Shown piece after piece: positions 4,950-18,832 of a stretch of DNA of 64,000 nucleotides. The stretch's first letter is position 1; each line of letters opens with the position of its first letter. The position numbers and the translations under genes are program-made. Source of the stretch: Streptosporangium sp. NBC_01495 (lineage in GTDB: Bacteria; Actinomycetota; Actinomycetes; Streptosporangiales; Streptosporangiaceae); contig NZ_CP109430.1 in the NCBI RefSeq assembly GCF_036250735.1, positions 6,076,001-6,140,000 on the forward strand, given 5' to 3'. Below the pieces are notes generated by a model. It ran no database searches, was not told where the DNA came from, and saw only the letters and a program-made list of their open reading frames with translations.

Positions 4950-6710
4950 ATGTGGATCGAGGACTACGCTCTCATCGGCGACATGCAGTCGGCGGCCCTG
5001 ATCGGCCGCAACGGCTCCATCGACTGGCTCTGCCTGCCGCGCTTCGACTCGCCCTCCTGCTTCGGAGCGCTGCTCGGCGACAAGAAGAACGGCCAGTGGT
5101 GGATCGGCCCCGCGCACGCCGAGCGTCCGCACGCCACCCGGCGCCGCTACCGGGGCGAGACCCTCATCCTGGAGAGTGAGTGGGACACCCCGACCGGCAC
5201 GGTGAGGGTGACCGACTTCATGCCCACCCGGCACACCAACCCCGACCTGGTGAGAATCGTCGAGGGCGTGTCCGGGACGGTGGAGATGGCCACCGAGATC
5301 CGCATCCGCTTCGACTACGGCCGCATCGTGCCCTGGGTGCGCCGCAGCGACGGCCTGCTGCAGGCCGTCGGCGGGCCCGATTCCGTGTGGCTGCACTCCC
5401 CCGTCCCGCTGGAGGGCAGTGACTACGCCCACCGGGCGAAGTTCGAGGTGTCCGAGGGCGACAGCCTGGCGTTCGTCTTCACCTGGCACCCCTCGCACGA
5501 GCCCAGGCCCGTCGAGATCGACCCGTACGAGCAGCTGGGCGAGACCGAGTCGCTGTGGGCCGAATGGGTCGAGCAATGCACCTACCAGGGGCCGTGGCGC
5601 GAGGCCGTGGTCCGCTCGCTCATCACGCTCAAGGCGCTCACGTACGCCCCCACCGGCGGCATCGTCGCCGCCCCGACCACCTCGCTGCCCGAGGACATCG
5701 GCGGCGTCCGCAACTGGGACTACCGCTACTGCTGGCTGCGCGACGCCACCATGACCCTGGACGCCCTGATCGGCGCCGGATATCTGGAGGAGGCGGGCGC
5801 GTGGCGGTCCTGGCTGCTGCGGGCCATCGCGGGCCGCGCCCAGGACCTGCAGATCATGTACGGCGTCGCCGGGGAGCGCAGGCTGACGGAGCTGGAGCTC
5901 GACTGGCTGCCCGGCTACGAGAACTCCCGGCCGGTCAGGATCGGCAACGGCGCGGTCGACCAGCTCCAGCTGGACGTCTACGGCGAGGTCATGAACTCCC
6001 TGCACCTGTCCCGCGTCTCCGGCCTCGAGGCGGACCATCGGGCGTGGACCCTGCAGTACGAGCTGATCTCCTACGTCGAGGAGCACTGGGTGGACGCGGA
6101 CGAGGGCCTGTGGGAGGTCCGCGGTCCGCGACGGCACTTCGTCCACTCCAAGGTCATGTGCTGGGTCGCCGTCGACAGGGCCGTCAAGCAGGTGGAGGCC
6201 TTCGGCAAGCCCGCCCCGCTGACGCGCTGGAGGGACCTGCGCGACCGCATCCACGCCGAGATCTGCGACAAGGGCTTCGACCCGGTGCGCGGCACCTTCA
6301 CCCAGTCGTACGGCTCGCAGGAGCTGGACGCGGCCCTGCTGCTGATCCCGATCGTCGGCTTCCTGCCGCCGGAGGACCCCCGGGTGGTCGGGACGGTGGA
6401 GGCGATCCAGCGCGAGCTCATGGTCGACGGTTTCGTGCTGCGCTACCCGGTCTCCCCCGACAACGACGTGGACGGCCTGCCCGGCGGCGAGGGCGCCTTC
6501 CTGGCGTGCAGCTTCTGGCTGGCCGAAACCCTGGCGATGATCGGCCGCAAGGACGAGGCCGTCGAGCTGTTCGAGCGCCTGCTGTCGCTCCGCAACGACG
6601 TCGGCCTGCTCGCCGAGGAGTACGACCCCCGCTACGGCCGGATGGTCGGCAACTTCCCGCAGGCGTTCAGCCACGTTCCGCTGATCCACACCGCCCGCGC
6701 GCTCAGCTGA
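4950..6710 (+). CDS. Glycoside hydrolase family 15 (trehalase/glucoamylase-like)
   Basis: A 586-residue cytoplasmic protein with no signal peptide. It starts with the N-terminal beta-sandwich motif IEDYALIGDMQSAALIGRNG, followed by the (alpha/alpha)6 barrel with RNWDYRYCWLRDATMTLDAL at about 250-270 and LLAEEYDP near 552, where the catalytic base of GH15 enzymes lies. Length and motifs match actinobacterial GH15 proteins, several of which are trehalases; glucoamylase or another alpha-glucosidase activity is equally possible from sequence. The ATG is 9 bp after the yczE stop, suggesting one transcript. Confidence 0.9.
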   Translation: MWIEDYALIGDMQSAALIGRNGSIDWLCLPRFDSPSCFGALLGDKKNGQWWIGPAHAERPHATRRRYRGETLILESEWDTPTGTVRVTDFMPTRHTNPDLVRIVEGVSGTVEMATEIRIRFDYGRIVPWVRRSDGLLQAVGGPDSVWLHSPVPLEGSDYAHRAKFEVSEGDSLAFVFTWHPSHEPRPVEIDPYEQLGETESLWAEWVEQCTYQGPWREAVVRSLITLKALTYAPTGGIVAAPTTSLPEDIGGVRNWDYRYCWLRDATMTLDALIGAGYLEEAGAWRSWLLRAIAGRAQDLQIMYGVAGERRLTELELDWLPGYENSRPVRIGNGAVDQLQLDVYGEVMNSLHLSRVSGLEADHRAWTLQYELISYVEEHWVDADEGLWEVRGPRRHFVHSKVMCWVAVDRAVKQVEAFGKPAPLTRWRDLRDRIHAEICDKGFDPVRGTFTQSYGSQELDAALLLIPIVGFLPPEDPRVVGTVEAIQRELMVDGFVLRYPVSPDNDVDGLPGGEGAFLACSFWLAETLAMIGRKDEAVELFERLLSLRNDVGLLAEEYDPRYGRMVGNFPQAFSHVPLIHTARALS

Positions 6711-6880
6711 GACGCCGATCTCCGGGCACCTCCAGTCCGCTTTATCCCTTTTTGTCTGAACAGGTCGTTGGAAACGGCTGACTTCTCGGAAATTCGCCAA
6801 GAAATCCGGGATTCGGCTGCAACAATCCGGTGCGATCGTGACTCTCATCCGATGTAACACCACCGGAAAGGATCGAACCA

Positions 6881-7135
6881 ATGAGCGATTTCGACGTGAC
6901 CACCACCGACCTGGTCGACTACGACGGCGACGGAGGCACCGATGCCCAGCTGATCGACGTCGACGGTGACGGTCTCGCCGACGAGGAGCGCTACGACACC
7001 GACGGTGACGGCGTCACCGATGTCGTCTACCTCGACCACGACGGCGACGGCTACATCGACGAGACGCGCGTCGACCTGAACGGCGACGGGGTCGCCGACT
7101 ACACCGAGACCGCGGGCCCCTTCCCGACCGTCTGA
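6881..7135 (+). CDS. Small acidic protein of five 13-residue DxDGDG calcium-binding-type repeats
   Basis: An 84-residue protein that is almost entirely five exact 13-residue units: DYDGDGGTDAQLI, DVDGDGLADEERY, DTDGDGVTDVVYL, DHDGDGYIDETRV and DLNGDGVADYTET. Each unit has the D-x-(D/N)-G-D-G-x-x-D spacing of EF-hand-like or thrombospondin type 3 calcium loops. There is no signal peptide, membrane segment or cysteine, so it appears cytoplasmic unless exported otherwise. A GGAAAGG Shine-Dalgarno sequence precedes the ATG. It lies just upstream of, and on the same strand as, the GrpE-like and dynamin-like genes. Calcium binding is inferred from motif only. Confidence 0.8.
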   Translation: MSDFDVTTTDLVDYDGDGGTDAQLIDVDGDGLADEERYDTDGDGVTDVVYLDHDGDGYIDETRVDLNGDGVADYTETAGPFPTV

Positions 7136-7232
7136 ACCGTCTGAAACAGAGAGACCGGCACGAGCCCGTGTGATCTCACCGAGGGGGGACCCGGATCCGG
7201 GTCACACGGGCGGCCGACGAGAAAGGCCTGCG

Positions 7233-8078
7233 ATGAGGGACCGACGCGCGTTCCTTCCCCTGCTCCTGGCCTGGCCGGTGCTGACCGGCTGCGGCGCGGT
7301 GACGGGGCCCGGAGGAGAGGCGGTCGGCGCGCCGTCGGTCCCACTGCGGGACGGCGGCGTGCGCCCCCTGGACCCCGGGGAGGCGGGGACCGTCACGGTG
7401 GGAACACCGTTCGGGTTCCTCCCGCCGCCCCTGGTGCTCGCGGTGGCGGCGGGCGCCCTGGCCGTGGTGACCGTGGTGGCCGTGGGCCTGTACCTGCGGC
7501 ACCGCGACCGCCGCCCCACCCCGCGAGCCCCCCTTCCCGGCACCTGGCGGGCGGCCCCCGTACCACCGGGGACGCCACCGTTCCCGGCGGGCGGGGCGGG
7601 ACCGGCACCGGGACGGCCCGGCGCGGACCACGCCGCTCCATCCGCCGATCCGGGGGCGGATCCCTCGGCGGACCCGCTGGCCGGGGCGCTGGCCGAGGTC
7701 GCGGCGAGCGGGATCAGCGCCGCGCTCACGCAGCAGGTGGAACGGCTCCTCGCCGGGGGCCGTCCGGGGCGCGAGGCGCTGGTGGCGGCCTGCGTCGACT
7801 ACCGTGACCAGCTCGCCGAGCGGCACCCCCGGCTGGCCGGGACGCTGCTGGAGGCGCTGAACCGCGCGGGGATCCGGGAGATCGTCGCCGACGGGCGGCG
7901 CTTCGACCCGCGCCTGCACGAGGCGGCCGGCACCGAGCCGGCCGGACGCCCCGAGCTGCACGACATCGTGGCCGAGACCGTCAGGCGGGGGTACGCCGAC
8001 GGCGAGCGCGTGATCCGCGTGCCGCGGGTCGTCGTCTACCGCCACGGCTCGCCGGACCCCGGAGCGGAGCGGCGGTAA
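7233..8078 (+). CDS. Membrane-anchored GrpE-like nucleotide exchange factor
   Basis: A 281-residue protein. Residues 1-20 form a short signal with a lipobox (LTGC, C20). A transmembrane segment follows at about 66-88, then a Pro/Ala-rich linker. The C-terminal domain (about 145-273) resembles GrpE: a helical stretch, then the beta-wing pattern with GIREIVADGRRFDPRLHEA and GYADGERVIRVPRVVV. GrpE releases ADP from Hsp70. A GAAAGG sequence precedes this ATG, better than the upstream GTG at 7170. An Hsp70-like gene lies in the same cluster, convergent. Whether the lipobox is processed or the segment is simply a membrane anchor is open. It is far from any canonical dnaK operon in this window. Confidence 0.78.
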   Translation: MRDRRAFLPLLLAWPVLTGCGAVTGPGGEAVGAPSVPLRDGGVRPLDPGEAGTVTVGTPFGFLPPPLVLAVAAGALAVVTVVAVGLYLRHRDRRPTPRAPLPGTWRAAPVPPGTPPFPAGGAGPAPGRPGADHAAPSADPGADPSADPLAGALAEVAASGISAALTQQVERLLAGGRPGREALVAACVDYRDQLAERHPRLAGTLLEALNRAGIREIVADGRRFDPRLHEAAGTEPAGRPELHDIVAETVRRGYADGERVIRVPRVVVYRHGSPDPGAERR

Positions 8079-8103
8079 GGCGGTAAGGCGGTGCGGCGGT
8101 GAA
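8072..8103. repeat. 8-bp tandem repeat over the grpE-like stop codon
   Basis: Four consecutive 8-bp units, GCGGTAAG, GCGGTAAG, GCGGTGCG and GCGGTGAA. The first contains the TAA stop of the GrpE-like gene and the second repeats it out of frame. Confidence 0.8.
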
Positions 8104-8223
8104 GCGCCCGGCCCTCACCGCGCCGGAGCTCGCCCCTCTCGCCCCCCGCCCTCGCGTCCACCCCGCCCCACCGGCTCCCGCACCCACCAAACTCCCGTAC
8201 CCACCGAGAAGGAAATACCGGAC

Positions 8224-8310
8224 ATGCCCGCTCAGACACCTCCACCGGACGGCCGGAACCGCGTACCCGCCCGCGAGAACGCCTCGGGCGGCCGGAACGG
8301 TGACGCGTGA
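8224..8310 (+). CDS. 28-codon ORF translationally coupled to the dynamin-like GTPase
   Basis: ATG at 8224 is preceded by a strong GAGAAGGAAA Shine-Dalgarno sequence, while the downstream GTPase has none of its own. The product would be MPAQTPPPDGRNRVPARENA followed by SGGRNGDA. Its TGA overlaps the GTPase GTG start as GTGA, the classic arrangement for translational coupling. It may be a coupling leader rather than a functional peptide. No homologue is recognised. Confidence 0.5.
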   Translation: MPAQTPPPDGRNRVPARENASGGRNGDA

Positions 8311-10193
8311 ACGCCGGGCCCGCGGACCTGCTGCGCCGCCTGTGCGACACCACCTCGGCCAGGCTCTCCGGCGCGGAGCTGCGCGAGCGGGTGGGGCAGG
8401 TGCGCGCCGGCCTCGACGCGCCGCTGCGGGTCGCGGTGGCGGGCGCGGTGAGCAGCGGCAAGTCGACGCTGGTGAACGCGCTGCTCGGGCTGCCCGTCGC
8501 CCCGGTGGACGCGGGCGAGTGCACCTTCGTGGTCACCCAGTACGAGTACGGCGAGGACGACGGCCACATCACGGTCGAGCTCACCGACGGCGGAGTGGCC
8601 CACTCCCGGCTGCTGCCGGGGCACCGGCTCCCCTCCGAGTTCGGCGTCGACGTGGCCCGGATCCGGCGCCTGCGGGTCACCCTCGACCTGCCGTCGCTGC
8701 GCACGATCACCATCGTCGACACCCCCGGCATGAACACGGTGACGGTCGCCAACGAGCGGGCGGCCAGGAGCATGCTGTTCGGCTCGGGCGACGAGGACGA
8801 CCGCGCGCAGGCGATGATCTACGTGCTGCGCTACGTCCAGAAGTTCGACGACACCACCCTGGCCGAGTTCCGCGGGCTGACCGACGCCTGCGGCATGAGC
8901 TGCGTCAACACCCTCGCCGTGCTCGGCCAGGTCGACCGGCGCGGCGACGAGGGCGACCCGTGGCCGACCGCGAGGCGGCTCGCCGCCAAGGGCTACGCGG
9001 ACCTGCGCACCTCCGTCTTCGACGTGGTCCCGGTGATCGGCCTGCTGGCCGAGACCGCGCGGGCCCGCCCGCTGGGCACCGAGGAGGCGGCGGCCCTGGC
9101 GGCGCTGGCCGGGCTCGACGAGGACGACCTGGAGGACTATCTCCTGGACCTGGACGACTTCCGCTCGGCGCCCGAACTTCCCGTACCGGCCGAGGTGCGG
9201 CACCGGCTGGTGGAGCGGCTGCACCGCTACGGCATCACCAGCGCGGTGGACGCGGTGCGCGCAACCGGGACCGCCGACCCCGAGGCGCTCGCCGCCCACC
9301 TGCTGGAACGCTCGGGTTACTCCTCCGCGGGCCGGGCCGCGACCGGCTCGGTGGCCGCGGGCATCGCCCACTTCGCCCGTCGCGCCGACCAGCTGAAGGC
9401 GCTCGACGCGCTGACCCGGCTGCGCGCGATCGCCCGCACGCCCGCGCTGGGGGCCGACCGCGCCACCCTGGACGCGCTCGCGGCCCAGCTCGACGAGAAC
9501 CGGCCGATCGCGACCTCCCTGGGCGGCCTGCGGATCTTCACCGCCGCCGAGGCGCTCGGCCGGGGCACGCTCGTGCTGAACGAGGAGATGACCGCCGAAC
9601 TCCTGCGCCTGGCCCGCCACGACGAGCCCGCCGAGCAGCTCGGCCTGCCCTCGGGGACCTCGGCCTCGGAGGTCGCCGCCGCGGCCACCGCGGCGTCGAT
9701 GCGCTGGCGCACCCTGGCGATGATGAGCGAGGGCAGGACCGGCGGGCACCGGGCCAGGGACGTGCTGACCGTCCTGGAGGACCTCGTCTCCACGGCGCTG
9801 GACGAGGCGGCCCTGGACGAGGCGGCCCTGGAGGAGGCGGCGTCGGACGGGGCCGTACGGACCGGAGGGGCGTCCCCCGCGAGTGCCGGGGGCGAACCGC
9901 TCCCCCCGGTCCGGGTGGCCCCCGCCGCGATCGAGGCGCTGCGGGCCTCCCCCCTCGTCCCCGCCGACGACCGGCGGGCACTGGAGCTCCTGCTCGCGGG
10001 GTCCGAGCTGGCCACCCAGCTCGGGGCGCCGCCCGGAGCGCCGCGCGCCGAGGTCGCGGGCTACGCCGCCGCCCTGGGCGCCCGGTTCCGCGTCCTCACC
10101 CACCGGCCGCTCTCCCTGCGGCAGCGGCGGGCGGCCGAGACGCTGTGCGAGGCGTACGAGGCCATCTGGTCGCACTACGGCGGCGGTTCCTGA
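8307..10193 (+). CDS. Dynamin-like GTPase, first of a pair
   Basis: A 628-residue protein with an N-terminal dynamin-type GTPase domain: P-loop GAVSSGKS (46-53), switch-I threonine near T73 and G3 DTPG (138-141). A long helical region follows, with an Ala/Glu-rich stretch near residues 500-515 (DEAALDEAALEEAAS) encoded by a 15-bp repeat. No clear transmembrane segment is visible. Dynamin-like proteins oligomerise on membranes with GTP, and bacterial ones are often encoded as adjacent pairs, as here with the gene at 10244. The GTG start overlaps the stop of an upstream small ORF. GTPase assignment is firm; membrane action is inferred. Confidence 0.85.
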   Translation: MNAGPADLLRRLCDTTSARLSGAELRERVGQVRAGLDAPLRVAVAGAVSSGKSTLVNALLGLPVAPVDAGECTFVVTQYEYGEDDGHITVELTDGGVAHSRLLPGHRLPSEFGVDVARIRRLRVTLDLPSLRTITIVDTPGMNTVTVANERAARSMLFGSGDEDDRAQAMIYVLRYVQKFDDTTLAEFRGLTDACGMSCVNTLAVLGQVDRRGDEGDPWPTARRLAAKGYADLRTSVFDVVPVIGLLAETARARPLGTEEAAALAALAGLDEDDLEDYLLDLDDFRSAPELPVPAEVRHRLVERLHRYGITSAVDAVRATGTADPEALAAHLLERSGYSSAGRAATGSVAAGIAHFARRADQLKALDALTRLRAIARTPALGADRATLDALAAQLDENRPIATSLGGLRIFTAAEALGRGTLVLNEEMTAELLRLARHDEPAEQLGLPSGTSASEVAAAATAASMRWRTLAMMSEGRTGGHRARDVLTVLEDLVSTALDEAALDEAALEEAASDGAVRTGGASPASAGGEPLPPVRVAPAAIEALRASPLVPADDRRALELLLAGSELATQLGAPPGAPRAEVAGYAAALGARFRVLTHRPLSLRQRRAAETLCEAYEAIWSHYGGGS

Positions 10194-10243
10194 GAGGGCG
10201 CGCCCCCGACACCCGAACCATCCCCGACAGGAGAACAAGGACC

Positions 10244-12169
10244 ATGACGACCCCCGACCCGACCGGCCCCGTGGCCAGGCTGCTGCGCTACGCCAACGAG
10301 GTTCACGCGCTGGCCGGGCAGTGCGGCAGGAAGGACCTCGCGGAGGTGCTGGCCGCGTGCGCGGGCCGCTGGAAGGACGAGTGCACCGACATCGTGGTCG
10401 CCGGGGCGCAGAAGCGCGGCAAGAGCCGGCTGCTCAACACGCTGGTGGCCCACCCCGACCTGCTCCCCGTCGACGCCGACGTGGCCACCAACTGCTTCCT
10501 GTCGCTGCGGCGCGGCCCCCGGCTCGCCGCCGTCGTGCACCGTAGCACCGACGCGGGACCGGTCCAGACGCCGATCACCGTCGAGTCGATCCCCGACTAC
10601 GCCTCGATGCGCGGCGACGCGGGCAAGCGCCGCGACGTCGTCAGCGTGGACATCACCCTCGACAACCCGCTGCTCGACGGCCTGCGGCTGCTCGACACCC
10701 CCGGCGTGGACAGCCTGACGGTCGGCCACCGGCAGGTGACGGTGGCCATGCTGCAGCGGGCCGACGCGCTGCTGTTCACCCTCAGCGCGCAGGACCAGCC
10801 GGTGCTCAGGCACGAGCTGGAGTTCCTCGCCGAGGCCGCCGAGCGGGTCCAGGCGATCGCGTTCGTCCTGACGAAGGTGGAGGACTCGGCCAACTGGCGC
10901 GCCCTGCAGGAGGAGAACAAGACCCGCCTGAGGACGTTCGTCACCGAGGCGATCGCGGCGAGTCCCGGCAGGGCGGCGACGCTGGCCCCGCTCCTGGAGG
11001 CGCCGTGGATCCCGGTGAGCGCCAAGCTCGCCGAGGCCGCCGAGGTCAAGCGGCGCGAGGGACGCACGGAGCGCGCCGACACGCTGCGGGCGCGCAGCGG
11101 CATGGACGTGCTGGAGCGGCACCTGCGCGGCTTCGCCGAGGGCAGGGACTCCGCGCGGGGCGCCACGGTGGTCGCCGCCGCGCTGTCGGTGCTGGGCTCG
11201 CTGGCGACCGGCGCGAAGGACGACGTCGCCGTGGGCTCCGACGACGAGGGCGACGTCACCGCCCGGCTCGCCGAGGTGGACGCCGGCCTCGCGGAGCTCG
11301 CCGGGCTGGCGGGGCGCCGCAGGGCGGGCGCGGTGGCCAACACCTTCCTCGGGCGCGAGGTGGCGGGCATCGTGGCGGCGCGGGTGTCGGAGATCCGCCA
11401 GCCGTACGAGAACACGATCGCCACGCTGAAGAAGCAGGCCCAGGTCGACCAGTACATGGCGGAGCTGCCGGAGAGCGTGCAGCGCTCCCTGGAGGCGGCG
11501 TGGTCGCAGATCGTCTACGACGTGGAGACGCTGGCCAGGACCACGCTGGACGCCTTCGCCCGCGATCTCGGCCTCGACCCGGTCGACCTGGCCACCGACG
11601 GGCGCGCGATGCCCAACCTGACGCAGGTCCAGGTCAAGGGCGACCTGGCCGCGGACGACCCGGGCAGCGTGGACCTGATCCGGGACGTGCTGCCCTCGGC
11701 CTCGATCGGGCTGTCGCTGGGCGGCTTCGCCACGGCCCTGCTCGGCCCGGTGGGCTTCATCCTGGTCGCCCCGGCCATCGGGGCGGCCATCTTCATGGGA
11801 CGGCGCTCGATGGAGAAGGTGCAGCGCAGCCAGGCGGCGATCAGGGGGGCGCTGCGCGACCAGTTCTCGGTGGTCGCCAGGGAGATGACGCTCGACCTGG
11901 AGCGGATGGTGGCGACCTGGCGGGTGGGCGTCGAGCAGACCGCGGACGAGAGCCTGGCCCGGCGCCGCAGGGAGCTGGAGAGCAGGCGGGCCGAGCTGAA
12001 GTCCGCCTCCGCCCGCTCGGCCGCCGACCGTCTCAAGGCCCGCAGGTCGGGCGAGGACCGCATCGCCGCGATCGCCACCCTCACCGCGCGCGGCCAGGAG
12101 CTCCGCGGGGAACTGGCCACCGCGGTGGCCGCCCTGGGCGCGGAACGACCGGTGCCCGCCGCGACCTGA
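10244..12169 (+). CDS. Dynamin-like GTPase with C-terminal hydrophobic hairpin, second of a pair
   Basis: A 641-residue protein with P-loop GAQKRGKS (54-61), a switch-I threonine near T82, G3 DTPG (151-154) and a G4-like TKVED (210-214). After a helical region comes a hydrophobic, glycine-rich hairpin at about 486-516, the likely membrane-inserting paddle, then a long Arg/Glu-rich coiled-coil tail (about 525-625). Such architecture is typical of bacterial dynamin-like proteins that remodel or bridge membranes. A GGAG sequence supports the ATG. It follows the first GTPase by 50 bp on the same strand, implying a hetero-oligomeric pair. Confidence 0.87.
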   Translation: MTTPDPTGPVARLLRYANEVHALAGQCGRKDLAEVLAACAGRWKDECTDIVVAGAQKRGKSRLLNTLVAHPDLLPVDADVATNCFLSLRRGPRLAAVVHRSTDAGPVQTPITVESIPDYASMRGDAGKRRDVVSVDITLDNPLLDGLRLLDTPGVDSLTVGHRQVTVAMLQRADALLFTLSAQDQPVLRHELEFLAEAAERVQAIAFVLTKVEDSANWRALQEENKTRLRTFVTEAIAASPGRAATLAPLLEAPWIPVSAKLAEAAEVKRREGRTERADTLRARSGMDVLERHLRGFAEGRDSARGATVVAAALSVLGSLATGAKDDVAVGSDDEGDVTARLAEVDAGLAELAGLAGRRRAGAVANTFLGREVAGIVAARVSEIRQPYENTIATLKKQAQVDQYMAELPESVQRSLEAAWSQIVYDVETLARTTLDAFARDLGLDPVDLATDGRAMPNLTQVQVKGDLAADDPGSVDLIRDVLPSASIGLSLGGFATALLGPVGFILVAPAIGAAIFMGRRSMEKVQRSQAAIRGALRDQFSVVAREMTLDLERMVATWRVGVEQTADESLARRRRELESRRAELKSASARSAADRLKARRSGEDRIAAIATLTARGQELRGELATAVAALGAERPVPAAT

Positions 12170-12326
12170 CCGGACACCTCCCTGCCGCGCGACCGCGGCC
12201 GGCGACCGATCACCGTCGACGGTCACCGTCGTCGGCCGTCGCCACCGGTCGCTGTCGGCGTCGGCCGTCGCTCCGGTGGGGAACGAGGATCGGGACGGAA
12301 CCGGAACGCACCCGTGGAGCCGTGGC

Positions 12327-12351
12327 GGCCCCCGCCTGCCGGGCGGGGGCC
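12327..12351. terminator. Bidirectional terminator hairpin between GTPase and hsp70-like genes
   Basis: A perfect 10-bp stem, GGCCCCCGCC and GGCGGGGGCC, with a TGCCG loop, lies between two convergent genes. Confidence 0.75.
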
Positions 12352-12359
12352 GTGAACGA

Positions 12360-15116
12360 TCAGAGGGGCAGGTGCACCAGGGTGGCGGGCTGGTCGCGGG
12401 TGGCGCCGAGCGCGTCGGCGGGGCGGTGCAGGCAGAGCAGACCCGTCGGAACCCGGGCGACCGGCTCGAACATCCCCGGCGTGCGGTGCACCTCCCGCGC
12501 CCCGGCGGGGGTGACGTGCAGCAGCCTGCTGCGGCCCGCGTCAAGCATGGTCATCCACATCGAGTCGCCGTCGGCGACGAACCTGGGACGCTCCCAGCGG
12601 TGCCGCGAGGTGAGGTGACCGGCCAGGGTCGCCGACTGCTTGCCCATCAGGAACTCCAGCGTCTGGGAGCGCTGGTCGAAGATCCCGACAGACCAGCCCC
12701 TGGCCGGGCTCACCTGGTCGGTGCCGACCGCGTAGATCTGGTTGCCCGCGGGGAACCAGCGCAGCGCGCCGCCCCGGGGGCGCGGCATGACCAGCCTGGT
12801 CCTGCCGTCCGCGGTGTCGGCCTCCAGCCCCGCCGAGCCGGAGGTGAACCACCTGCCCCCGTGCAGGACCACCTGGTGCAGCCAGCTCCGCCCCGGCTCG
12901 CGCACCGTCGGGCGCACGACGCCGCCGGGGTCGACCAGGCACAGGACCTGCCACGGCCTGAAGTCCTGGTGCCGGTTCTGGAACATCGGCTTGTTGCTGC
13001 CGAACTGCCCGAGCACCACGGTGCAGCCCGGCGCGCCCACCGAGGGCGACGGCTCGGTGCCGCTGGGGGCCTCCTGGTCGAGCAGCCGTCGCAGCCTGTT
13101 GTCCTCGTTGAGGAACCACTGAGCGTACGGGCCCAGCTCGCGCGGCTGGGGAGCCTGGAAGGCGAGGTTCCCGCCCAGGTCGAGCTCGATCATGGCCAGC
13201 TGGCCGGTCTCCCCCCAGGGCAGGCCCATCGCGGTGTCGACCGGGACGGCCTGCCGGGAGTGGAAGAAGGCCCACGCCGTACGGCCGTGGGCGATCACCG
13301 TGGGGTTGCCCCACATCTGCATCGGGTGGGTGGCGCGAATGGCCAGGTCGGGGGTGAGGGTGCGGACCAGCACCTGCGCGGGTCCCACCTGCTCCACGGC
13401 CACGACGCCCTCTCCGGACGCGGCCCACTCCACGAGCCTGCCGAAGCGGAACTCCCGGTCGTGGCGGCCCCCGATCCCGTCGAGCCTGCGCAGGAGGTGG
13501 CCGCTGTCGAAGGCCTGGTGGACGAGGACCCTGCCCGCCTCGGCCCGCGCCTCGAGGACGGCGTCCATGACCTTCTCGATCCCCTGGACCGTGGGCCCGC
13601 CCGCCGTACCCCCGGCGCTCCCGGGACCCCCGGGGCCCCCTGACGGGCCGATGGGGGCCCGGTGGCCGCCGGTGGCGCCGTCCTCGGGACCGGTGAGCAC
13701 CCGGTGGTCCCCGGTGGCACCGCCCGCCGGGCCGGTGAAGGCCCGCGGGCCCGCGGCCAGGACGGCGACCGGCGCCCCGGGAGGCCGGTGCCCCCCGGCG
13801 GGGCCGCCCGCGGGGACCGGGGAGACAGGGGAGACAGGGGACTCCAGGGAGCCCGCTGCTGGGCCGGTGAAGGCCCGCTGCCCCGCACCGGGGACCCGCC
13901 CGGCGCCGGGATCGCCGGAGGTGCCGGGAGGGACCGAGTAGCCGCCGGTGCCGGGAGGGACCGGGTGACCGCCGGTGCCGGAAGGGACCGGGTGACCGCC
14001 GGTGGCGGGAGCGGAGCCCCGGCTCGGTTCGCGGTGCTCGACCTTGAGCTTCCAGGCCAGCTGCGCGGCGCCGTACGCGACCACGATCTTCGGGTCGTCG
14101 TAGGTCCTGACCCGCTCGCCGAAGCGCTCGCGCACGGCCTTCTGGACCAGCGGCATCCTGCTGGGCCCGCCGGTCATGAACACCGCGGCCAGCTCGCCGG
14201 ACTCGACCCCCGCGCCGCGGATCGTCTCGTCGAGGATGTCGACCGTCCTGACGATCTCCTCGCCGATGAGGTCCTCCAGGTCGGCCCTGGTGATGTGCAC
14301 GTCCTCGTTGATGCCCACCACGTAGTGGGAGGAGGTGTCGAACTTCGACAGCGTCTCCTTGGCCTCCCTGGCCATCTTGAGCAGGTCGGCGGCGTAGCTG
14401 ACGTAGCGGCGCTCGGGGTTGGTGGTCACCTGCTGCCACCAGTCGGCGTCGAGCCGCTCGATCTGGGCGCCGAGGAACGCGAAGACCTGCTCGTCGAACC
14501 CCTCGCCGCCGATCTCGTCGCTGCCTCCCGGCTCGCCGACGACCGCGAAGTCACCGCCGTCCACGGTGAGGACGGCCGCGTCGAACGTGCCGCCGCCGAG
14601 GTCGTAGACGGCCAGCCGCGATCCGCCGGTCGCCCGTCCCGCGGACGCGAAGTAGCGGGCCGAGGCGACGGGCTCGTCGATGAGCGCGATCCGCACGCCG
14701 CTGACGACCTTCCTCGCCGCCGCCAGCAACACCGCCTTGCGGTCGGCGCCCCAGGCCACCGGGTGGGTCAGCGCGATGCAGTCGGGGTCGGCGCCGTCGA
14801 ACCGCCGCCGTCCCTCGCTGACGAACAGCTCCAGCAGCGCCGCCAGGGCGTCGGCCACGTCCACCGGGACGCCGCCGAGCAGCATCCGGCCCCGGCCGAC
14901 GTAGCGCTTGGGGTTGCGCTCGACGCGCTCGGGACTGATCGCGATGCCCCGCTGGGCGATCCTGCCCGCCACGAGCGTCCCGCGCTCGTCCAGCATGACC
15001 GCGGAGGGGATGCGCCGCTCCCCCTCGACCTCCAGGACGTCGAAGCGTCCTTCTGCCGCTATCACCCCGGCGGAGAAGCTCGTCCCCAGATCGACACCGA
15101 GGCACCACTGCGCCAT
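12360..15116 (-). CDS. Hsp70-family ATPase with long linker and non-canonical C-terminal domain
   Basis: A 918-residue protein. Residues 1-362 are an Hsp70/actin-type ATPase: phosphate-1 GVDLGTSFS (7-15), phosphate-2 YDLGGGTFDAA (171-181) and adenosine motif MTGGPSRMPLV (314-324). Residues 365-508 are a Gly/Pro-rich linker with nine-residue repeats TGGHPVPSG, TGGHPVPPG and TGGYSVPPG. The last 410 residues are not the DnaK substrate-binding domain; they contain Trp/Phe-rich strands resembling a beta-propeller. The protein probably couples ATP cycling to binding of a specific partner. The ATG has an AGAGGAG Shine-Dalgarno sequence. The convergent GrpE-like gene is the obvious exchange-factor candidate. 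Confidence 0.85.
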   Translation of the reverse strand: MAQWCLGVDLGTSFSAGVIAAEGRFDVLEVEGERRIPSAVMLDERGTLVAGRIAQRGIAISPERVERNPKRYVGRGRMLLGGVPVDVADALAALLELFVSEGRRRFDGADPDCIALTHPVAWGADRKAVLLAAARKVVSGVRIALIDEPVASARYFASAGRATGGSRLAVYDLGGGTFDAAVLTVDGGDFAVVGEPGGSDEIGGEGFDEQVFAFLGAQIERLDADWWQQVTTNPERRYVSYAADLLKMAREAKETLSKFDTSSHYVVGINEDVHITRADLEDLIGEEIVRTVDILDETIRGAGVESGELAAVFMTGGPSRMPLVQKAVRERFGERVRTYDDPKIVVAYGAAQLAWKLKVEHREPSRGSAPATGGHPVPSGTGGHPVPPGTGGYSVPPGTSGDPGAGRVPGAGQRAFTGPAAGSLESPVSPVSPVPAGGPAGGHRPPGAPVAVLAAGPRAFTGPAGGATGDHRVLTGPEDGATGGHRAPIGPSGGPGGPGSAGGTAGGPTVQGIEKVMDAVLEARAEAGRVLVHQAFDSGHLLRRLDGIGGRHDREFRFGRLVEWAASGEGVVAVEQVGPAQVLVRTLTPDLAIRATHPMQMWGNPTVIAHGRTAWAFFHSRQAVPVDTAMGLPWGETGQLAMIELDLGGNLAFQAPQPRELGPYAQWFLNEDNRLRRLLDQEAPSGTEPSPSVGAPGCTVVLGQFGSNKPMFQNRHQDFRPWQVLCLVDPGGVVRPTVREPGRSWLHQVVLHGGRWFTSGSAGLEADTADGRTRLVMPRPRGGALRWFPAGNQIYAVGTDQVSPARGWSVGIFDQRSQTLEFLMGKQSATLAGHLTSRHRWERPRFVADGDSMWMTMLDAGRSRLLHVTPAGAREVHRTPGMFEPVARVPTGLLCLHRPADALGATRDQPATLVHLPL

Positions 15117-15119
15117 GTC

Positions 15120-15385
15120 CACTCCTCTTGAACTCCTCCCCGGCCTGAGGGCCGGGGACTCTCCCGTCGCGTCGCGGTTGGGCGGCGCGCGGGGGTTGAC
15201 GCTTCGCAGACCGGGTAACCCCGAGGTCTCCACGTCCTGACACCGGCGTTCCGACGGCGTTCCTGATATTGATCGCGGCGTTGGTGTCGGCATGCCCGAC
15301 CCAGTCGCACACGGGGTTGGCGCAGGCGTACTTTATCCCGTCCCGGACCGCCGGGTCACGATGGTCGCACCGATGACAGGTCTGC
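15120..15385 (-). pseudogene. IS200/IS605-type TnpB (OrfB) C-terminal remnant
   Basis: Read on the minus strand, the fragment encodes the TnpB zinc ribbon (QTCHRCDHRD, then YACANPVCDW) directly followed by VGHADTNAAINIRNA, which contains the last RuvC acidic residue. Everything upstream of the zinc ribbon is missing, so it cannot be an active nuclease. No tnpA is present. The 3' side runs into the right-end hairpin and then the hsp70-like start region. Confidence 0.8.
15138..15157. mobile_element. Right-end hairpin of the IS605-type remnant (omega-RNA-like)
   Basis: A perfect 8-bp stem, CCCCGGCC and GGCCGGGG, with TGAG loop, sits just after the tnpB remnant. In this IS family the right-end hairpin is recognised by TnpA and also forms the 3' scaffold of the TnpB guide RNA. 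The next bases on the minus strand are the hsp70-like Shine-Dalgarno region. Confidence 0.65.
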
Positions 15386-15387
15386 GA

Positions 15388-15407
15388 GGTCCCCCGCGCG
15401 GGGGACC
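15388..15407. terminator. Terminator palindrome after the 15487-16416 gene
   Basis: A perfect 20-bp palindrome, GGTCCCCCGCGCGGGGGACC, lies 80 bp beyond the stop of the minus-strand gene and at the 5' breakpoint of the TnpB remnant. Confidence 0.6.
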
Positions 15408-15486
15408 TTCACAGGGCGACAGGACCGGCAGGAGCCCGGGGGTGGGACGGGCCGGGGCTCGGGTGACCGTCCTCGCGGGGGGCGGG

Positions 15487-16416
15487 TCAGCCGCCGAGGC
15501 CGCCGTCGGGGCGGACGGCCAGGGCGGCGAGGACGCGGGCGAAGTCCGGCGGGGGCGCGACCACCAGCCGGGTCTGCCCGTCCTGGCTGACCAGGTCGGC
15601 CCTGATCAGGGAGAGACGGCCGCCGTGCCACCAGTAGACCTGCGGGCTGAGCGCCTCGGCGCGCATGTCGAACTCCCGCTGGGCGAACAGCCGCAGCCGC
15701 TCGATCGCGCGGACCACGCTGATGCCCTCGACCGGGTGGACGATCAGCGTCGCCGGGTCGGGCAGGGCGACGAGGACCCCGTCGGAGGGGACCGGCAGGT
15801 AGTCGCCCAGCCTGCGCAGATGGGCGGCGGCGCCCTCGGTGGGACCGGTCAGCCTGCGGACCGCCACACCGCCGAGGTCACCCTCGGTGACCGAGAGCCG
15901 CTCGTCCCTGCGGGCGTTGTCCAGGGCCAGGTCGAGCGCCTGGGCCGCGGTGATCGGCCAGCAGCCGACCTCCTCGGGGCGGACCTGGCGCCCGGCGGCG
16001 CCGTCGCCGATGGTGAGCACCTCGACCAGGTCGGCGGTGAGGTGGCGCCCGACCACGCGGGCCGAGTCGAGATCGTCGTCAAGCTGGATGCGGGTGCGCA
16101 GCAGCGGGCGTACCTGCTCCAGATCGCAGGCGTCGAACGGCTCGTCCGCCGTGGCCAGGGCGTGGGACAGGTGCTCGGAGACGATCACGGGCCAGTCCTC
16201 GCGGGAGCGCCGGAGCGCCTCGGCGCGCAGCCCGGCGAGCCGCACCACGACCCGGCGCGGGCCGGTGAGCGTCAGGGTCCCGCCGCCGGGATCGAAGGCG
16301 CAGGCATAGCCGAGATTGTCCGCGACCAGGGCGAGCAGGGAGTCGAGATCGACCTCTTCGACCGGACGCGGCGGCGTCTCGGTCCGCCGGTCACGGTGCC
16401 GCCGAAACAATCTCAC
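15487..16416 (-). CDS. Uncharacterised cytoplasmic protein, possibly DUF1444/YtpQ-like
   Basis: A 309-residue soluble protein with no signal peptide or membrane segment. It starts MRLFRRHRDRRTETPPRP and contains WPVIVSEHLSHAL (about 76-88) and VRPLLRTRIQ near 102-111, a pattern that loosely recalls YtpQ/DUF1444 proteins. No catalytic motif is visible and I do not assign a function. The start is a GTG with an AGAGGGGG sequence upstream. It ends shortly before a terminator palindrome. Confidence 0.6.
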   Translation of the reverse strand: MRLFRRHRDRRTETPPRPVEEVDLDSLLALVADNLGYACAFDPGGGTLTLTGPRRVVVRLAGLRAEALRRSREDWPVIVSEHLSHALATADEPFDACDLEQVRPLLRTRIQLDDDLDSARVVGRHLTADLVEVLTIGDGAAGRQVRPEEVGCWPITAAQALDLALDNARRDERLSVTEGDLGGVAVRRLTGPTEGAAAHLRRLGDYLPVPSDGVLVALPDPATLIVHPVEGISVVRAIERLRLFAQREFDMRAEALSPQVYWWHGGRLSLIRADLVSQDGQTRLVVAPPPDFARVLAALAVRPDGGLGG

Positions 16417-18424: not shown

Positions 18425-18832
18425 TCACCAGCCGGGGACCTCGAACGTCGCGCCGGGCCGGATGTCCCCCGGCCGGGCCGTGACGGCCGTGGAACCGGTG
18501 CCGGGCACCGGACCCCCGCCGACGCCGTCACCGATCCGCAGCGCCCCCAGGATCGTCTCCCAGGTGCCGTCCACCGACCACCGGCGGTGCCGGTTGTAGA
18601 CGGTCTTCCAGTTGCCGTAGGCCTCCGGCAGCTTGCGCCAGGGGCAGCCGCTCCTGGTACGGAAGAACACCCCGTCGATGATCGTGCGGTGATCGGCCCA
18701 CCGGTTTCCCCGCCGGGCGTGAGCGGGCAGCAACGGCGCCAGCCGCCCCCACTCGTCGTCGGTCAGATCATCGCGTTTCAACCGGTCGTCCACGTCCCCA
18801 TGATCTAACACCATCGGTACCGGAAGATCCAC
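18425..18832 (-). pseudogene. IS5-family transposase remnant (N-terminal domain)
   Basis: The translation contains LTDDEWGRLAPLLPAHARRG followed by NRWADHRTIIDGVFFRTRSG and CPWRKLPEAYGNWKTVYNRH. This is the N-terminal DUF4096 domain of IS5/IS427-group transposases. After WETILGALRIGDG the sequence diverges into unrelated residues and stops, and the DDE catalytic domain is absent. No flanking inverted repeats were found. It is a decayed copy. Confidence 0.82.

Follow-up and report, generated by a model that had tools for sequence, protein, structure and literature searches.

The locus described here lies in a window of 64,000 nucleotides (the whole stretch of DNA analysed; contig NZ_CP109430.1, positions 6,076,001 to 6,140,000) from the 11.1-Mb genome of Streptosporangium sp. 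NBC_01495; the closest named relatives with the locus belong to Streptosporangium, Planomonospora and Planobispora. Positions 6881-15113 of the window are filled by five genes with actinomycete codon bias, encoding a small repeat protein, a GrpE-like membrane protein, two dynamin-like GTPases (Dyn1 and Dyn2) and an Hsp70-like protein whose gene is opposite in strand to, and convergent with, the other four (Table 1). Third-codon-position GC content is 0.89-0.97 in the four open reading frames (ORFs) measured whole, that of Dyn2 having been measured within a longer open frame that encloses it, and start codons were picked by eye from the translations. A promoter scan of the module returned 0 sites, and a terminator scan returned one terminator-like site, which equals the number expected by chance. 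A sequence-only reading of this DNA had described the same cluster, with a calcium-repeat protein at its head, a membrane-anchored GrpE-like protein, two different GTPases of which one has a hydrophobic paddle, and an Hsp70 with a replaced C-terminus, all separate from the canonical dnaK operon. The five genes were confirmed by ORFs, Pfam matches and codon bias, and each element of the description held when measured as given below. It missed that the GTPases are of IniA/IniC type, that the Hsp70 gene is convergent, and that the genes are present or absent as a block. A canonical dnaK operon, or a duplicate of one, is ruled out, as the Hsp70 is truncated and the canonical dnaK/grpE pairs of this genome lie elsewhere, at 5.73 and 9.38 Mb.

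Table 1. Genes of the module, the extent of the block and its flanks (positions in the window).
Feature	Positions	Strand	Evidence or remark
DxDGDGxxD-repeat protein	6881-7135	+	84 amino acids; ORF, codon bias, sub-threshold EF-hand_5
GrpE-like transmembrane protein	7233-8078	+	PF01025, E=1.1e-10; AlphaFold2 and Foldseek; hydropathy
Dyn1, dynamin-like GTPase, IniC position and type	8307-10193	+	PF00350, 2.5e-13; P-loop GAVSSGKS, DTPG
Dyn2, dynamin-like GTPase, IniA type	10244-12169	+	PF00350, 2.1e-15; GAQKRGKS, DTPG
Hsp70-like protein, ATPase domain and predicted beta-propeller	12360-15113	-	PF00012, 2.3e-33; AlphaFold2
Block extent, trehalase-like gene to 309-residue gene	6711-15486		Flank conservation, empty sites
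Trehalase-like gene (glycoside hydrolase family 15), left flank	4950-6710	+	Flank of block
X15, 309-residue gene, right flank	15487-16416	-	Conserved; no Pfam match

Dyn1 and Dyn2 are adjacent Dynamin_N GTPases, both with the P-loop and DxPG motifs; by eye, the T/NKxD motif of Dyn1 looks degenerate, reading GQVD in the window and SRAD in some of its relatives. For both, the closest solved protein is Mycobacterium smegmatis IniA (6j72), at 2.5e-9 for Dyn1 and 9.2e-18 for Dyn2. The hydrophobic paddle-like segment belongs to Dyn2 (Kyte-Doolittle hydropathy 2.19), whereas Dyn1 has no strong hydrophobic segment (best value 1.43). By sequence, the two are an IniC/IniA-type dynamin pair, for which membrane binding and fission are predicted; in the passages of PMC6715688 that bear on this point, membrane binding and scission are reported for IniA only.

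The GrpE-like protein consists of an N-terminal lipobox-like signal (LTGC), a short outside segment, a helix at about residues 67-90 (hydropathy 2.64; membrane helices were judged from hydropathy alone throughout), a proline-rich linker and a GrpE beta-domain, a layout that would place the outer segment outside the cell and the beta-domain in the cytosol. By eye, 12 of 14 Streptosporangiaceae copies have the lipobox-like signal; the copy at L032 lacks the lipobox cysteine and that at L036 the whole N-terminal region (L, G and f denote our loci, genomes and families). The PF01025 match is confined to residues 204-268 and to profile positions 100-163 of 165, which is the beta-domain. AlphaFold2 modelled the last 131 residues with a predicted local distance difference test score (pLDDT) of 90.9, and the first 12 Foldseek matches of this model are all GrpE; a profile comparison with solved chains gave eight matches, seven to GrpE and one to a designed helical bundle. 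No long N-terminal GrpE helix or coiled coil was found, profile positions below 100 being unmatched and the 131-residue model having only short helices. Of a GrpE exchange factor, the beta-domain is therefore present by both profile and Foldseek; it appears to be of the type that enters the Hsp70 cleft, and would serve nucleotide exchange.

The 84-residue protein at the head of the block is acidic and contains five tandem calcium-loop-type repeats of about 13 residues, DxDGDGxxD. Its EF-hand_5 match scores 22.5 bits, under the Pfam cut-off of 25.9, and no signal peptide was seen by eye. By tblastn it has a match at each of the 18 distinct Streptosporangiaceae loci related to that of the window. 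A longer protein built from the same repeat adjoins the dynamin pair and its Hsp70 in a genome of another family (G108, family f26; L091:14699-15619, minus strand).

The Hsp70-like protein has an ATPase domain of about 375 residues, a proline- and glycine-rich repeat linker and a C-terminal domain of about 410 residues. Its best PF00012 stretch runs no further than position 372 in a profile of 599, the point at which a peptide-binding domain would start; across the window protein, the set of 20 scanned copies of ini type and the L110 protein described below, this stretch never goes beyond position 381. All 14 aligned Streptosporangiaceae copies of the window's type have intact phosphate-1, phosphate-2, adenosine and EP-x-A motifs, as scored against the genome's own DnaK with the K70 position left out. 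Identity over the C-terminal 412 residues is 51-92% across 19 sequences, and an AlphaFold2 model of this part is all-beta (pLDDT 65; predicted template modelling score 0.68). The top Foldseek matches are propeller proteins, mostly with TM-scores of 0.3-0.5, and rank 50 is a superoxide dismutase. A beta-propeller is predicted to stand in for the peptide-binding domain, and this reading is strengthened because some of the related Hsp70s at sister loci terminate in propellers recognised by Pfam: WD40 at L071, L067 and L076 (two scanned of three copies), PQQ at L085 (one of two copies) and, past a membrane helix, Vgb/YNCE at L041 (one of two). No propeller match was obtained by Pfam in the other Hsp70 copies scanned, for example at L043, L069, L091 and L040.

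The gene set is found at 19 distinct Streptosporangiaceae loci (the window, L029-L039, L049-L052, L054, L059 and L061), 18 of which share the order trehalase-like gene, block, X15 and LD-carboxypeptidase-like gene; at L039 the block has a different flanking context. Among 15 other genomes of the genus, nine carry Dyn1, and in all six that do not, the trehalase-like and X15 genes are only 40 to 172 bp apart. In these six genomes the repeat protein, the GrpE-like domain, Dyn1 and the propeller domain had no match, and Dyn2 produced only 23-25-bit GTPase-domain matches, in four of them; the positive control (G003) matched in every absence search, and the Hsp70 ATPase domain was left out, since canonical DnaKs would match it. 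Because the site is empty and no close matches lie elsewhere, the five genes make up one block, inherited as such, present or absent. On a tree of the flanks (24 rows) three presence changes are needed, at least two of them forced by supported branches, and losses are the simpler reading because all sampled Planomonospora and Planobispora are positive. X15 and the trehalase-like gene were rejected as parts of the module, as both remain where the block is absent. X15 itself is a conserved protein that adjoins the block at 18/19 loci or the empty site in 6/6 genomes, and an IS4/5-type transposase fragment (DUF4096) lies past the right flank at 18425-18832.

To place the module in the class, Dynamin_N (PF00350) was sought in 148 genomes, at least 146 of which had a match, and 45 loci were picked by eye among the matches listed for examination of the surrounding stretches, a procedure that misses pairs with two weak members. 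These comprise 29 IniA/IniC-type pairs from 27 genomes (318-568 bits against a Dyn1 profile), 15 other dynamin loci (112-167 bits; dynamin pairs of another type at L094-L103, a single dynamin at L080) and L066, a single Dyn1-type match of 229 bits with no Hsp70 within its 16 kb, assigned to neither group. Loci with duplicate names, such as L048 and L030, were counted once, and G049, a 3.9-kb contig, lies outside the sample. Among the matches listed, an Hsp70 lacking the substrate-binding domain (hereafter truncated) lies near 26 of the 29 IniA/IniC-type pairs and near none of the 15 other loci, a difference for which Fisher's test, using 14 of those 15 loci and ignoring relatedness, gives 8.7e-9. 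By chance about 0.9 of the 29 pairs would have a truncated Hsp70 within 12 kb on either side; two of the 26 lie about 12.5 kb away, just past the distance of that figure. The grouping of Hsp70 and dynamin pair is more than chance. The three pairs with no truncated Hsp70 are L044 (a 21-kb contig), L078 (an 11-kb contig) and L079, near which only a canonical dnaK operon is found.

A GrpE beta-domain protein is encoded at the pair in nine of 35 pair-bearing genomes searched, from families f1, f15 and f19. With this and the truncated Hsp70 at 26 of 29 pairs, the expectation under which the sequence-only reading would have failed, that these genes only rarely co-occur, was not borne out. Eight of the nine copies are beta-only, starting at profile positions 97-101, and the ninth (G183) matches 28-163, whereas the canonical GrpE proteins of these 35 genomes match from positions 6-33 onwards. 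The copies in G165 and G104 score at the Pfam cut-off or slightly below it and match a local profile well.

A quick tree of Dyn2 from 39 loci, with long branches and a midpoint root, tentatively splits into two clades. One unites the window's type with L071, L076 and L085 of family f19 and with L045 and L091; the other holds the IniB/IniR loci and also L065, with its GrpE-like protein, and L067, with its Hsp70-WD40 protein. At most IniB/IniR loci the Hsp70 carries a membrane helix of its own, whereas the window's type combines a soluble Hsp70-propeller protein with a membrane GrpE-like protein. Over the 39 loci, at hydropathy cut-offs of 1.6 and 1.7 (L075, at 1.57, is just under), 17 have only an Hsp70 helix, 15 only a GrpE-like anchor, six neither and one both; put differently, the Hsp70 has a membrane helix at 17 of the 23 loci that lack a GrpE-like membrane protein. 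A swap of tethers was rejected as statistical proof, the tree offering only three independent pairs (sign test, p=1), and the pattern, which probably reflects one or a few events, is best regarded as one of clades. Assignment of loci to the IniB/IniR group draws on IniB_NTERM matches above the NCBIfam cut-off at L040 and L042, on an IniR match at L041 that reaches 1.5e-75 yet is under the equivalog cut-off, and on IniR-like tblastn matches below 1e-30 at 12 loci (L040-L042, L070, L073, L075, L077, L084, L086, L087, L089 and L090). An Hsp70 ATPase domain fused to CD225 (E=3.1e-21) is encoded beside the dynamin pair of Nonomuraea gerenzanensis (L110:11777-13180 and neighbours), and may represent a third solution to tethering.

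Building on this domain content, the predicted anchor, the intact ATPase motifs, the block-wise distribution and the recurrent co-occurrence, we favour a reading in which, under envelope stress, a membrane-tethered cycle of Hsp70 and exchange factor controls the IniA/IniC-type dynamins, and assign it a probability of roughly 0.45. Dyn1 and Dyn2 would act on the cytoplasmic membrane as a pair of IniC/IniA type. The Hsp70-like ATPase would most likely grip a single client of its own, either the dynamin pair or the assembly it forms, and not unfolded peptides, because a predicted propeller replaces the peptide-binding half. The GrpE-like protein would span the membrane, lipid-anchored outside, and offer its beta-domain to the cytosol, where it would exchange nucleotide on the module's own Hsp70, speeding ADP release only at the membrane; the client would thereby be gripped and released at the sites of envelope stress. 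The calcium-loop repeat protein may add a Ca2+ input. The sequence-only reading, which had proposed that Hsp70 cycling controls the assembly or disassembly of GTPase coats, is partly supported as a whole, and this control is a step that we infer, as we do the binding of the parts to one another.

Envelope stress is favoured as the putative trigger because the closest characterised relatives, the iniBAC genes, are induced by cell-wall inhibitors, as stated in passages of PMC6715688 and PMC5760070, because IniB_NTERM and IniR are present at other loci of the family, and because a sigma factor of the extracytoplasmic function type directly precedes Dyn1 at two f19 loci with a GrpE-like gene (L071:12745-13317 and L076:5174-5764). 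A further hint is that IniR acts in response to trehalose, according to the title of PMC5760070, and that a trehalase-like gene flanks the block, a neighbourhood that at 18/19 loci may be more than chance. In view of the relatives across the sampled actinomycetes, the module is probably a real and mostly overlooked membrane-stress machine.

Several observations weigh against this reading. The opposite-strand layout lends no support to joint expression of the Hsp70-like gene with the plus-strand genes, and physical interaction within the module is proposed from gene content. No J-domain was recognised in the module proteins by the Pfam scan. The propeller model is of modest confidence and was built from closely related sequences, and five Hsp70-like proteins at pairs, scanned or measured, have no propeller match. 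At L054 the GrpE-like gene had no tblastn match at 1e-4, the sole missing piece among the 19 loci, and at L036 the GrpE-like protein (12188-12952) has no signal and no membrane helix in the available assembly, through either a true deletion or a gap in assembly. The GrpE-like protein of L065 likewise lacks a helix, L085 has both anchors and six loci have neither; the tether pattern, moreover, is not independent evidence, because it follows the two clades of the dynamin tree. Truncated Hsp70s are found also far from dynamins, chiefly in family f19. Finally, Hsp70-like copies of family f6, which appears to be mycobacteria-like judging from its IniB/IniR content, keep the fold but have degenerate ATPase motifs, and therefore the ATP cycle cannot be general. 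Such degenerate motifs occur together with a membrane helix in the f6 genes of L042, L086, L087, L089 (first copy) and L090 (second copy); by sequence, the f6 proteins beside IniA/IniC-type pairs are probable pseudo-ATPases.

The main rival, which we consider unlikely, is that the module belongs to biological conflict, as an anti-phage or altruistic-death system in which membrane damage by an invader triggers assembly of Hsp70 and dynamins, sealing or killing the cell. Its patchy occurrence within the genus would fit, as would the surroundings of the L110 pair and Hsp70-CD225 fusion, which lie amid two caspase-domain and two AAA-LuxR proteins. PADLOC gives weak matches of Dyn1 and Dyn2 to LeoA, and of Dyn2 to LeoBC as well, the only and partial likeness found there to a known anti-phage system; the GrpE-like and Hsp70-like proteins have no PADLOC match up to E 0.1. 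Conflict systems with paired GTPases are described from multicellular actinobacteria in the parts of Kaur et al. 2020 (PMC7159879) relevant here; genes for HSP70 and GrpE occur there in about 14% of the neighbourhoods of GAP1-N2. However, the Pfam scan recognised no effector domain in the window's module, the block occupies one fixed chromosomal site with about three losses on the flank tree, and relatives of the pair lie with IniB and IniR, of an envelope-stress regulon. Searches with Dyn2 found no phage match and with the propeller domain no viral-contig match; in a plasmid collection Dyn2 matched two records, an 11.85-Mb Nonomuraea sequence that is plainly a chromosome and, at a distant 31.6%, a real, cyanobacterial plasmid. 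On these searches, plasmid, phage or viral cargo was rejected.

Quite unlikely is a role of the Hsp70-like protein as an ATP-dependent sensor or scaffold, an actin-fold switch whose propeller recruits the dynamins to the GrpE-like receptor with no chaperone cycle. The early end of the HSP70 match in all proteins scanned, the f6 copies that have lost their motifs and retained the fold, and the fusion, at many loci, of the ATPase domain to a membrane helix or to CD225 are what such a role would predict, but the window's type retains its ATPase motifs, and a partner with a GrpE beta-domain would have little purpose if no nucleotide is exchanged. That the dynamin operon and the Hsp70 gene are unrelated neighbours with no joint function is very improbable, for although they lie on opposite strands, truncated Hsp70 genes are common in some families and the Hsp70 is some 9-12.6 kb from the pair at L068, L072 and L088, all five genes are jointly absent from 6/6 genomes and the co-occurrence at 26/29 loci spans varied arrangements.

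The membrane-tethered Hsp70 cycle that we favour invites a wider and doubtful extension, namely that the ini-type dynamin family as a whole is an Hsp70-controlled membrane-remodelling machine. In the window's type, which would be the most explicit form of this machine, a lipidated GrpE-domain receptor would set off local Hsp70 cycling on an envelope signal, perhaps calcium, such that a dynamin scaffold is assembled or stripped; the peptide-binding domain would have been exchanged for any of several propellers, and the whole would be a bacterial counterpart of coat removal by Hsp70. IniA/IniC-type dynamins attract study because they are linked to stress of the cell envelope. If an Hsp70 ATPase is their usual partner, as its presence at most pairs suggests, the regulation of these dynamins becomes directly testable; and if the tethered cycle is true, a GrpE exchange domain would be the signalling part of a membrane receptor, a novel means of coupling the outside of the cell to an Hsp70 motor.

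Hsc70 and auxilin uncoat clathrin, an example of Hsp70 cycling on a membrane coat. The module would resemble this system only in its proposed logic, as no coat or J-protein is shared. Its likeness to canonical DnaK and GrpE resides in the motifs of the ATPase domain and in the GrpE beta-domain; unlike the canonical pair, it has no peptide-binding domain, no J-domain and no match to the long GrpE helix, and a membrane helix precedes its GrpE domain. Searches of open-access literature brought up no account of a bacterial dynamin under the control of a chaperone. The GAP1/DO-GTPase conflict systems, in the relevant parts of PMC7159879, likewise have GTPases, partly paired, with HSP70 (lacking the substrate-binding domain in a subset) and GrpE in actinobacteria, whereas the window GTPases match Dynamin_N and not DO-GTPase, and GAP1 is absent. 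Membership was rejected, there being no match of the module proteins to PF19993, PF19975 or PF20013 up to E 0.1, and the main text of PMC7159879 never uses the word dynamin. Elsewhere the window genome does encode GAP1-N2 and DO-GTPase2 together with Hsp70 and GrpE (L046, contig 1, about 4.117-4.128 Mb), a set that matches these profiles and resembles those of Kaur et al.

The closest likeness is to mycobacterial iniBAC, which also has an adjacent Dynamin_N pair, to whose IniA both window dynamins are nearest among solved proteins, and whose relatives with IniB and IniR have a truncated Hsp70 nearby; a dnaK-like gene near iniBAC of M. smegmatis receives one passing mention in the published passages. 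The first 40 kb of the window gave no tblastn match to IniB or IniR (E up to 1e-3; queried with two IniB N-termini and one IniR), an IniB profile scan having covered the GrpE-like, Dyn1, Dyn2, Hsp70-like and trehalase-like proteins, and because of this the module is not filed as iniBAC. Besides the dynamin pair that the two have in common, the window encodes a GrpE-like membrane protein, a protein of DxDGDGxxD repeats and a soluble Hsp70 with a predicted propeller and intact ATPase motifs.

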